This document shows positions 22,904 to 26,396 of a DNA stretch of 34,116 bases, piece after piece (position 1 is the stretch's first letter; every line of letters begins with the position of its first letter). Position numbers and translations under genes: made by a program. The stretch comes from Alphaproteobacteria bacterium (lineage in GTDB: Bacteria; Pseudomonadota; Alphaproteobacteria; Rs-D84; SZUA-605). The stretch is taken from NCBI GenBank assembly GCA_003250835.1, contig QKJL01000016.1, forward strand, positions 1 to 34,116. The letters are read 5' to 3'. Below the pieces are notes generated by a model. It was not told the origin of the DNA, did no database searches, and saw only the letters and a program-made list of their open reading frames with translations.

Positions 22904-24676
22904 TTAACTCTTATGAGTTGGTCGAACTTTGATATGTAATTCACGCAATTGTTCTTCAGACAATTCCGCTGGCGCATTCATCATCAAGTCTTGTCCACGT
23001 CCATTTAATGGGAACGCTTCCACTTCACGAAGATTTGGTTCACCTGTTAATAACATAACTGTACGTTCCAATCCACAACCCATTCCACCGTGTGGAGGAG
23101 CGCCGTATTGGAATGCTTCATATAAAGCACCGAATTTTTGTTTAACAACGTCTTCACCGTAACCAACTTTTTCAAAAGCTTTAAGCATAACCTTAGGATT
23201 ACTGTTACGGATACTTCCACCACCTAACTCAAATCCATTACAGATAAAGTCATATTGTTCAGAAAAGATTTTAAGAGGATCTTGTTCTTCAAAAGCCGCA
23301 AGTCCACCACGAGGTGCAGAAAATGGATTATGTCCAAAATCTAACTTACCTTCGTCATTCACTTCATAGAATGGGAAGTCAATCACCCAACAGAATTTAA
23401 ATTCATTTGGATCAATAAGATCAAGTTCTTGACCAAGTTTGATACGAACTTTTCCAGCAAACTTTTGAGCATCATGTAGTTTATCACAAACAAAGAAAAC
23501 AGAATCCCCATCATTCGCACCAGAGATTTCTTTGATCGCAGCAATACGGTCAGCATCTAAATTCTTCGCAATAGGTCCTTTTGCTTCGCCATCAGTTCCA
23601 AAGATGATATAGCCAAGTCCACCAGCACCTTCAGAGCGTGCCCAATCATTAAGCTTATCATAGAATGAACGAGGTCGATCCGCAGTTCCAGGTGTTGCAA
23701 TGGCTTTTACATGAAATCCTTTTGCAACTAATCCAGCGAATAAACCAAAACCTGAATCTTTAAATGATTCTGATACATCTTTAATTAAAAGAGGATTACG
23801 AAGATCAGGACGATCAATCCCATATGTTTCCATTGCTTCTGAATATGGAATACGAGGAATATTTGAATCGATTTTACGATCTCCTTTAAATTTATCATAA
23901 ACGCTGTATAAAACTTTTTCCATCGTGTTCATTACATCATCGCGTTCTACAAAAGACATTTCCACATCCAATTGATAATGAACAAGCAAACGATCTGCAC
24001 GTAAATCTTCATCACGGAAACATGGTGCAATTTGGAAATATTTATCAAATCCACCAATCATCAACAACTGTTTAAATTGTTGAGGAGATTGTGGCAATGC
24101 ATAAAAACCACCATGAGCATGACGAGAAGGTACCACAAAGTCGCGTGCGCCTTCTGGTGATGATGATGTTAACATAGGTGTAGAAATTTCATTAAATTCT
24201 TGTCCCCACATTTGTTGGCGAATAAAGCGTGTAATTTGATCACGCATTTTAATATTGCTTTGTAATTTTTCACGACGTAAATCGATGTAACGATGTTTAA
24301 TACGTAAATCTTCTGGGAATTTTTCATCACTTGCAACCAAGATTGGTAACACATCTGATTCAGATAAGACTTCAGCTTTTGAAATTTTAATTTCAATTTT
24401 ACCAGTTGGTAAGTTTTCATTAATCGCTTCCGCATCACGTAAAACAACTTCACCATCTAAACACAAAACTGTTTCTGGACGAACATGTTCAATCACTTTA
24501 AAATTAGGATCGGTGTTTTCAATAACACATTGAGTAATCCCATAATGATCACGTAAATCGATAAATACCAAATTACCATGGTCACGTTTACGGTGTACCC
24601 ATCCTGAAAGTTTAACCTGTGACCCATTATCTGTGTCACGCAAAGCACCACAAGTGTGCGAACGATATTGATGCAT
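22904..24676 (-). CDS. aspS: Aspartyl-tRNA synthetase
   Basis: 590 aa; GWVHRKRDHGNLVFIDLRD, RHRYIDLRR-like KHRYIDLRREK, GCGLERTVML, alphaproteobacterial-type PGTADRPRSFYDKLNDWARSEGAGGLGYI. Confidence 0.97.
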   Translation of the reverse strand: MHQYRSHTCGALRDTDNGSQVKLSGWVHRKRDHGNLVFIDLRDHYGITQCVIENTDPNFKVIEHVRPETVLCLDGEVVLRDAEAINENLPTGKIEIKISKAEVLSESDVLPILVASDEKFPEDLRIKHRYIDLRREKLQSNIKMRDQITRFIRQQMWGQEFNEISTPMLTSSSPEGARDFVVPSRHAHGGFYALPQSPQQFKQLLMIGGFDKYFQIAPCFRDEDLRADRLLVHYQLDVEMSFVERDDVMNTMEKVLYSVYDKFKGDRKIDSNIPRIPYSEAMETYGIDRPDLRNPLLIKDVSESFKDSGFGLFAGLVAKGFHVKAIATPGTADRPRSFYDKLNDWARSEGAGGLGYIIFGTDGEAKGPIAKNLDADRIAAIKEISGANDGDSVFFVCDKLHDAQKFAGKVRIKLGQELDLIDPNEFKFCWVIDFPFYEVNDEGKLDFGHNPFSAPRGGLAAFEEQDPLKIFSEQYDFICNGFELGGGSIRNSNPKVMLKAFEKVGYGEDVVKQKFGALYEAFQYGAPPHGGMGCGLERTVMLLTGEPNLREVEAFPLNGRGQDLMMNAPAELSEEQLRELHIKVRPTHKS

Positions 24677-24858
24677 TTTTCAATACTCCTATTTTCATTT
24701 AACAAAAATTGAGCTTAGGGGCGATCATTTAAGCGAACGCGGTGCCACCCTAATTGAAACTTGATTACAGCGATAACGGGCTTACCCGATGAGTTCTACT
24801 AAGTCATAACGACGGTTCTTCTCATTGCTCCCCGGTGTCAGCCGGATCAAAGCGGTAC
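24677..24858 (-). ncRNA. T-box riboswitch leader of aspS (ultrashort Stem I, probably translational)
   Basis: T-box UUAGGGUGGCACCGCG (24753-24738) with antiterminator partner CGCCCCUAA (24723-24715); Stem I GCUUU-GAU-CCGG-CUGACA-CCGG-GGAGC (24853-24827); Stem II AUGAG...AGUAGAACUCAU (24825-24789); Stem IIA/B-like CGGGUAAGCCCGUUAU (from 24788). Confidence 0.88.
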
Positions 24859-24893: not shown

Positions 24894-24994
24894 CCTTTAT
24901 TTTTAAGCAATAAAAAAACGGCCCCTTAAATAAATTTAAGGAACCGTAAGTGTGTTGTGTAAATAATTAAAAATAAAAAAATTAAACTAAAAAT

Positions 24995-25354
24995 TTAAAA
25001 TTCTACCGATAAAATCGGCAATGTTGTCGTAGCAAATCGTTGATCCGAAGAATACTCCAGTTTTGTCGCATCGGTAAGAGTTAATTCAACTGCATCAAAA
25101 CTTAAAGTAAGATGAGTTTCATCACTCAACGAAAGAGCTAAAAGGAAAAGGGGGAGATATTCAAACTCCACATCATGTTTCTTTTTTAACTTTTCCGCCA
25201 CCTCACTAAACGTTTGCAACAATGGAATGTCGTTTTCTAAGGCAAGGATAGCCTCTTTTGTAACATTATTTTCAATGAAGATTTTATGATCTTCAACATA
25301 GGCTTCATTATTCATGAAACGCCTAAACATTTTTAAGATTTCATCAACTTCCAT
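24995..25354 (-). CDS. Small protein of unknown function, putative paralog triplet member A
   Basis: 119 aa; resembles the neighbouring two ORFs in helix/strand pattern; own promoter and terminator. Confidence 0.6.
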   Translation of the reverse strand: MEVDEILKMFRRFMNNEAYVEDHKIFIENNVTKEAILALENDIPLLQTFSEVAEKLKKKHDVEFEYLPLFLLALSLSDETHLTLSFDAVELTLTDATKLEYSSDQRFATTTLPILSVEF

Positions 25355-25391
25355 AAAAGAATAATTTTGATTAATAATAGGTCTTTAAACT

Positions 25392-25419
25392 AATCTATCA
25401 CAGATTTTAAATTTGTCAA
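25392..25419 (-). promoter_or_regulatory. Promoter of triplet gene A
   Basis: TTGACAAATTTAAAATCTGTGATAGATT, N16 spacer. Confidence 0.6.
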
Positions 25420-25465
25420 TCCTATTAAAAAAGACGGCTACCCCCAGTGGGATAACCGCCTTAAA

Positions 25466-25852
25466 TTACATTTTCGATCGTACAATAATCGAATTGACTG
25501 ATAACTCGATTTTAAACCGACTAGTATAGTTCGGTGAATTCTTCGAATAATCAGTTACACTTAATGTTTTGTCACCAGGAATACTAAAAGAAATTCCGGG
25601 GAAAGGGCTACGTAAAAAGGCAAACATGAGTAATTCTATACCCGGATGCTTAAGGATGTTTTCATACTCAGCCTTTAATAGTGTCAACAAATAATCCAGA
25701 GCTTTTAAAACCGGATCTTCTTCGGTTAAGTTCATTTTAAACGAAGGATCCAAACAATTTAAGAATTGTTTTTCAATGTCCTCAAATGAATTAGGATATG
25801 CTTCAAAAGAATCATACTGTGTGACGATTGTAGATAAAAGATTTTTAATCAT
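25466..25852 (-). CDS. Small protein of unknown function, putative paralog triplet member B
   Basis: Internal start MIKNLLSTIV at 25852 (128 aa) follows promoter and leader resembling gene A. Confidence 0.6.
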   Translation of the reverse strand: MIKNLLSTIVTQYDSFEAYPNSFEDIEKQFLNCLDPSFKMNLTEEDPVLKALDYLLTLLKAEYENILKHPGIELLMFAFLRSPFPGISFSIPGDKTLSVTDYSKNSPNYTSRFKIELSVNSIIVRSKM

Positions 25853-25880
25853 AAGAATAATTTTTAGTTCAACAGCGTTG

Positions 25881-25908
25881 AATCTATCACAGATTTCAGA
25901 TTTGTCAA
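25881..25908 (-). promoter_or_regulatory. Promoter of triplet gene B
   Basis: TTGACAAATCTGAAATCTGTGATAGATT, two mismatches to that of gene A. Confidence 0.6.
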
Positions 25909-25964
25909 TATAGTGAAAAAAGCTAAAAAAAAGCCCCGCAAAGGGGACTTTTAATGTCTTTTTT

Positions 25965-26333
25965 TTAAGCACTTTGAATGGGTTCAGAGGCAAGATCCAC
26001 ATGATAAACATTGGGCTCCCCCTTTGACTTCGTTTTGTACACATACAACTTTTTCTTGATATCGGGAATAGCAAGAGAAAGAAAAGTATTCTCGGAAAGC
26101 AAATAAGCCAACAGGATAATGGGCAAGGATTTGTATACCTCCATCCAGGGATGCATAGGAATAACTTTCTGTAATAAACCTCTCAAAACGTCCATCACAT
26201 GCTCATCAGGCTTAATCAGGTTGATAATATCCTGATTTAAAACAGCGTTTACATATTCTACTTCCGTCGGCGTAGACGTAGGATCCGTGATAAAATCCCT
26301 ATACTGCTGTGCAATGTTAACGGTACTTATCAT
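25965..26333 (-). CDS. Small protein of unknown function, putative paralog triplet member C
   Basis: Internal start MISTVNIAQQ at 26333 (122 aa); promoter at 26369-26396. Confidence 0.55.
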   Translation of the reverse strand: MISTVNIAQQYRDFITDPTSTPTEVEYVNAVLNQDIINLIKPDEHVMDVLRGLLQKVIPMHPWMEVYKSLPIILLAYLLSENTFLSLAIPDIKKKLYVYKTKSKGEPNVYHVDLASEPIQSA

Positions 26334-26368
26334 AATCGTATATTTAATTTTTAGTTTAACGCCCCACC

Positions 26369-26396
26369 ACCATACCACATATTCCCAATCTGTCAA
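26369..26396 (-). promoter_or_regulatory. Promoter of triplet gene C
   Basis: TTGACAGATTGGGAATATGTGGTATGGT, same N16 spacing and partial identity to A and B. Confidence 0.5.

Follow-up and report, generated by a model that had tools for sequence, protein, structure and literature searches.

A probable Class III-type T-box riboswitch for tRNA-Asp in the aspS leader of an uncultured alphaproteobacterium

T-boxes are RNA switches that sense whether the matching tRNA is charged, and they are usually described from Gram-positive bacteria, with the ultrashort forms regarded as a speciality of actinobacterial ileS. Could an RNA of this kind control an aspartate--tRNA ligase gene in an alphaproteobacterium? 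The question is raised by contig QKJL01000016.1 (positions 1 to 34,116, referred to here as the window), in which a T-box element occupies the minus-strand leader (24854..24674) of aspS (22904..24676, minus strand), encoding a 590 aa aspartate--tRNA ligase (AspRS; NF001750, 775.6 bits vs a cut-off of 443). An earlier note on this DNA had proposed an Asp-specific T-box with a short Stem I outside the Actinobacteria, and our analysis supports the proposal through the downstream aspS, the conserved GAC or AAC of the loop, covarying Stem I helices and the alphaproteobacterial host. Judged from sequence comparison, the leader is very likely a tRNA-Asp-specific T-box riboswitch of Class III type, with an ultrashort Stem I.

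The strongest single signature lies outside the region considered in the earlier note, in the T-box antiterminator/antisequestrator at 24753..24715. Its 5' side (24738..24753) comprises UUAGGG, the T-box bulge UGGCACC (24747..24741) and GCG, as aligned with the Rfam T-box model RF00230, and its 3' side (24715..24723) comprises CGC and CCCUAA, of which CCUA is also able to pair with the UAGG of the Shine-Dalgarno sequence. The latter, GGAG (24686..24689), stands 9 nt before the AUG of aspS (24676..24674).

All strings quoted in the earlier note were recovered on the minus strand, with GCUUUGAUCCGGCUGACACCGGGGAGC at 24853..24827. Read 5' to 3' from 24854, the leader begins with CGC, UUU, GA, UCCGG, CUGACA, CCGGG, GA, GC and AA. 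The GC at 24852..24853 pairs with the GC at 24827..24828 as the basal (C) helix of Stem I, and the homologous pairs covary. Above it lies a kink-turn with a UUU bulge and GA on the 5' side (24847..24851), this GA being invariant in 30 minimal leaders and near-invariant in leaders bearing Stem II, and with GA on the 3' side (24829..24830), whose A is invariant in relatives. The distal helix, UCCGG (24842..24846) with CCGGG (24831..24835), has compensatory changes at every pair among relatives, and its 5 bp close the hexanucleotide apical loop CUGACA (24836..24841), which presents the specifier GAC, the Asp codon (24837..24839), followed by A24836 as in T-boxes. The GAC and its following A had been recognised in the earlier note, and the loop codon is conserved, since every readable homologous leader keeps GAC or AAC. 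The whole Stem I measures 27 nt and holds no structure past its 6-nt loop, in agreement with the reported absence of the distal platform, and the tRNA-elbow module (IDTM) is absent.

Other details of the earlier note had to be redrawn. Its 5-bp GCUUU/GGAGC helix was rejected because aligned relatives keep only 2-3 bp there or, if minimal, have 6 covarying bp beneath a GA/GA kink-turn; the window instead has a 2-bp GC/GC stem, the kink-turn (UUU-GA/GA) and the 5-bp UCCGG/CCGGG helix. The covariation expected of Stem I was found in the distal helix and the basal pairs alike, but the basal helix is not the one proposed. Neither of the two alternative specifiers survived, the bulged GAU being part of the kink-turn, whose GA is near-invariant irrespective of the codon, and the second GAC (24805..24803) making up one side of Stem II's inner helix, which is variable.

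Downstream of Stem I the leader continues with AUGAG, AAGAA, CC, GUC-GUUAU-GAC, UU, AGUAGAA and CUCAU. As anticipated, AUGAG (24821..24825) and CUCAU (24789..24793) form a Stem II enclosing S-turn-like elements, and this stem covaries, with compensatory changes at 4/5 pairs in relatives. The 5' side of the S-turn-like element, AAGAA (24816..24820), is near-invariant in relatives, and the UAGA of its 3' side, AGUAGAA (24794..24800), is invariant; the inner hairpin GUC-GUUAU-GAC (24803..24813) has covarying pairs and a variable sequence. The Stem IIA/B region was likewise present, although just beyond the range of 24789-24853 given for it: the Stem IIA hairpin CGGG-UAAG-CCCG (24777..24788), with invariant pairs, is followed by UUAU (24788..24773 in all). 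A UAA:UUA pairing as IIB pseudoknot is possible in the window and, by eye, is not present in all relatives. A linker then leads to the antisequestrator.

Folded by itself, the leader has an energy that does not stand out from shuffled sequences (z=+1.6) and is thus uninformative, so that the support for the element is comparative rather than energetic. RF00230 aligns the leader end to end (44.1 bits; E=1.2e-8 in a 401-bp stretch, 4.8e-9 in the genome). A covariance model, R3, built from 19 relatives, was trained on neither the window nor the three closest loops of another order; it scores the window at 65.1 bits (E=9.3e-13) and detects those three loops at E<=6.2e-10. For the Stem II-bearing relatives (form B), an alignment of 19 sequences that leaves out the window has 97.8% of cells paired vs 30-58% in slid controls, which retain the relatedness of the sequences, and 12 pairs located in Stem I, Stem II and the Stem II inner helix have changed on both sides; a 7-sequence alignment including the window gives the same picture. 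Stem IIA never varies among form B leaders and therefore permits no covariation test. In the minimal leaders (form A), Stem I is paired in 93.6% of cells vs 28-57% when slid (28 distinct sequences), its covariation is 0.748 vs 0.288 in shuffles, a control that does not remove relatedness, and 8/10 pairs have changed on both sides; compensatory changes also occur at the ends of the form A antisequestrator. The form A model, R1, was not used as evidence for the Stem I of the window because its match there spans only the antisequestrator region (24801-24713).

The two forms differ in their distribution. Form B, with Stem II and IIA, comprises the window, L003, L007, L022, L088, L108 and others, and was found in 37/201 genomes of the order; a 387-genome draw across the class returned the window genome and four genomes outside the order (families f94 and f95), and a 399-genome draw across the phylum returned the window genome only. 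An identical 27-nt Stem I precedes aspS in another order of the class (L193, family f95). Three leaders of that family, L192, L193 and L194, carry UGGCACAGCG in the T-box bulge region vs the usual UGGCACCGCG. Form A, to which most of family f5 belongs, has ~25 nt between Stem I and the antisequestrator, without Stem II or IIA, and every copy of this form that was read, among the aspS leaders L006-L031 and L073-L100 of the order, has neither the IDTM nor Stem II/IIA. R1 matches 167/202 genomes of the order, a count that includes the window genome (by its antisequestrator-only match) and probably a few other weak matches that are not form A; outside the order it gave one weak match (G450, E=2.7e-4). 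A four-segment alternating OFF-state relay before the Shine-Dalgarno sequence of the minimal leaders, considered as a candidate, gave 6.4 contiguous pairs vs 5.6 in shuffles, barely better, and is not claimed.

How might such a leader act? The GUC anticodon of tRNA-Asp would pair with the GAC of the Stem I loop, and the kink-turn would bend Stem I onto the Stem II S-turn, which would hold the anticodon. If the tRNA is uncharged, its G73-C-C-A end may pair with the UGGC of the bulge and stabilise the antisequestrator, keeping CCCCUA off the Shine-Dalgarno sequence and allowing aspS to be translated; charged Asp-tRNA would be unable to dock at the bulge, whereupon the antisequestrator would open and the ribosome site would be masked. 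The net effect would be that low Asp-tRNA raises AspRS.

The least certain step of this scheme is that control is translational rather than transcriptional, which we consider probable since no intrinsic terminator follows the antisequestrator. A terminator scan of the window leader found no hairpin with a U-run tail in the interval from the antisequestrator to the AUG, and the sole terminator-like site near the leader (24947..24918) ends the upstream unit; the leader of L193, the relative from another order, has no terminator-like site either. The CCUA:UAGG pairing is the usual translational arrangement, and this alternative fold is available in the window. That the T-box is real but acts by transcription antitermination is unlikely, though it is the alternative that fares best. 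It is favoured by a tyrS T-box elsewhere in this genome, whose clear intrinsic terminator hairpin and U-run indicate that transcriptional T-boxes probably work in this organism, and by a window sequestrator that is not sharply predicted; the missing terminators in the two aspS leaders argue against it, as does the published observation that short-Stem-I T-boxes are mostly translational (PMC10482949).

An Asp-specific T-box acting on translation, as preferred here, also has to be weighed against recognition of tRNA-Asn. The window genome carries GatB and tRNA-Asn, and no AsnRS-like enzyme beyond AspRS and LysRS was found in its 84% assembly, so AspRS probably also serves tRNA-Asn and makes Asp-tRNA-Asn. 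Together with the AAC found in aspS leaders of several relatives, this lends some substance to the idea that the T-box reads tRNA-Asn or both tRNAs, AspRS being non-discriminating and the loop codon loosely tied to Asp. We nonetheless regard the idea as improbable, since the GAC of the window pairs fully with GUC, while the GUU of tRNA-Asn is mismatched at the first codon position, and the loop holds no second codon. The bulge fits the acceptor end of either tRNA: in two genomes of the order, tRNA-Asp carries the anticodon GUC and a G73-CCA end matching the C of the UGGC bulge, and the tRNA-Asn (GUU) of the window genome has a G73-CCA end that fits UGGC.

Relatives display one of two loop triplets, GAC (Asp) or AAC (Asn), and no other; the gene that follows is in each case an Asp/Asn-tRNA ligase gene, and the base after the triplet is nearly always A (G in L016). 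In an automated tally of distinct leaders, GAC predominates before aspS (46 clear cases), with some AAC; the leaders of the archaeal-type Asp/Asn-tRNA ligase (NF003483), whose loops were assigned by eye where the kink-turn has AA, have AAC in all read cases except L009, which has GAC. AAC replaces GAC in the aspS leaders L003, L007, L016, L081, L088, L108, L164 and L191, with L009 as the reverse case, and the swap is not simply explained by whether a second ligase is present. In many of the order's genomes the aspS T-box with GAC is accompanied by another ultrashort one, which has AAC and precedes the archaeal-type ligase (L162, L168-L190; NF003483, ~437-443 aa); AA replaces GA in the kink-turns of many of these AAC T-boxes.

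Several observations count against a working Asp-specific T-box in the window. The RF00230 score falls below the curated gathering cut-off of 93 bits, for a model that expects a long Stem I; none of six scanned relatives reaches this cut-off, and at order scale there were weak matches only, none above it. No Stem III is visible in the linker before the antisequestrator. The tRNA-Asp gene was not found in the 84%-complete metagenome-assembled genome (MAG) of the window, the discriminator base being taken from relatives of the order. Finally, in the folding model a local GCUC/GAGU hairpin ties up part of GGAG even when the antisequestrator is formed, which would make for a soft switch, and since GGAG is partly paired in both states, the OFF state itself is inferred. 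The low score and missing Stem III, in a reduced, AT-rich genome, might suggest a decayed remnant, inherited but no longer switching; we give this slightly less weight still than recognition of tRNA-Asn, as every paired element is compensated or invariant across families, two of them outside the order, and neither the bulge nor the S-turn nor the loop codon shows damage. That the hairpin before aspS arose by chance, as the shuffle-like folding energy might suggest, is refuted by conservation, namely by the R3 match obtained with the window left out of training, the same Stem I in another order and the RF00230 match.

The host is probably a member of Rs-D84, an uncultured gut order (PMC12306168) of reduced-genome Alphaproteobacteria. 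The window genome is a reduced, AT-rich MAG of 671 kb, and its AspRS is alphaproteobacterial, the top matches in named genomes being nearly all from Alphaproteobacteria at up to ~60% identity. A T-box precedes aspS in nine named loci, all in records from uncultured organisms or MAGs that are labelled Alphaproteobacteria, 'Rickettsiales' or 'proteobacterium'. A TATAAT spotted by eye directly upstream of Stem I is absent from the promoter-scan listing. Between aspS and lepA (24995-26396, minus strand) lie three small open reading frames of 119, 202 and 143 aa that match nothing in Pfam at E<=0.01; those of 119 and 202 aa have no NCBIfam family either and no mutual similarity. Elsewhere in the genome, a second, long T-box (G000 C19:3851-4083, L001, minus strand; 90.4 bits, just below the Rfam cut-off) precedes an archaeal-type tyrS, with a UGGU bulge and a strong intrinsic terminator (z=-6.1), and is also found in the relatives G005 and G009. 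The A73-CCA end of tRNA-Tyr matches its UGGU, and the archaeal-type tyrS looks to have been acquired together with its own regulator.

No report of T-boxes in Alphaproteobacteria was found in the open literature, subscription journals being outside the search. Four T-box classes have been defined by the layout of Stems I and II, Class III being exemplified by actinobacterial ileS and recognised by an apical loop of five or six nucleotides that holds the specifier; tRNA binding gains strength from the IDTM, from the Stem II S-turn or from the two together (PMC10482949). Feature by feature, the predicted layout of the window is that of published Class III, its IIB pseudoknot and sequestrator being putative. 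With the ileS T-boxes of, for example, Nocardia farcinica (PMC10482949, PMC7583486) it shares the kink-turn, the short Stem I without IDTM, a six-nucleotide apical loop in which a purine follows the specifier, a Stem II S-turn joined directly to IIA with a putative IIB, and a UGGN antisequestrator without a terminator. Unlike them, it has an Asp (GAC) rather than an Ile specifier, precedes aspS, belongs to the Alphaproteobacteria rather than the Actinobacteria and has no visible Stem III. The kink-turn, Stem II S-turn, IIA (with a putative IIB) and UGGN bulge are shared with Class I T-boxes of the B. subtilis tyrS type, among them the tyrS T-box of the window genome.

The minimal form A leaders fit none of the four published classes. 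As in Class II glyQS, a short single-stranded linker replaces Stem II, but glyQS retains a long Stem I with the IDTM, whereas the minimal aspS leaders are without both. On balance we favour the view that most genomes of the order control aspS by a fifth T-box architecture of ~100 nt, composed of a kink-turn, a Stem I with GAC in a 9-nt loop and an antisequestrator, with neither IDTM nor Stem II/IIA/B; the Class III leader of the window would then be a fuller form beside it. A Class III T-box from which the IIA/B pseudoknot has been deleted binds tRNA >1000-fold more weakly (PMC10482949), so that something else must hold the tRNA if form A is functional. The TBDB class II (translational) model was run solely on Actinobacteria and on truncated-Stem-I matches of the class I model (PMC7778990), and the Rfam cut-off misses these leaders, which together constitute a blind spot in detection. 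Our results suggest that two forms of ultrashort T-box accompany an essential gene across an order of Alphaproteobacteria with reduced genomes. The progression from the Class III leader of the window to the leaders without Stem II constitutes a natural deletion experiment on the requirements of tRNA reading, and the GAC/AAC swaps supply matched specificity pairs.
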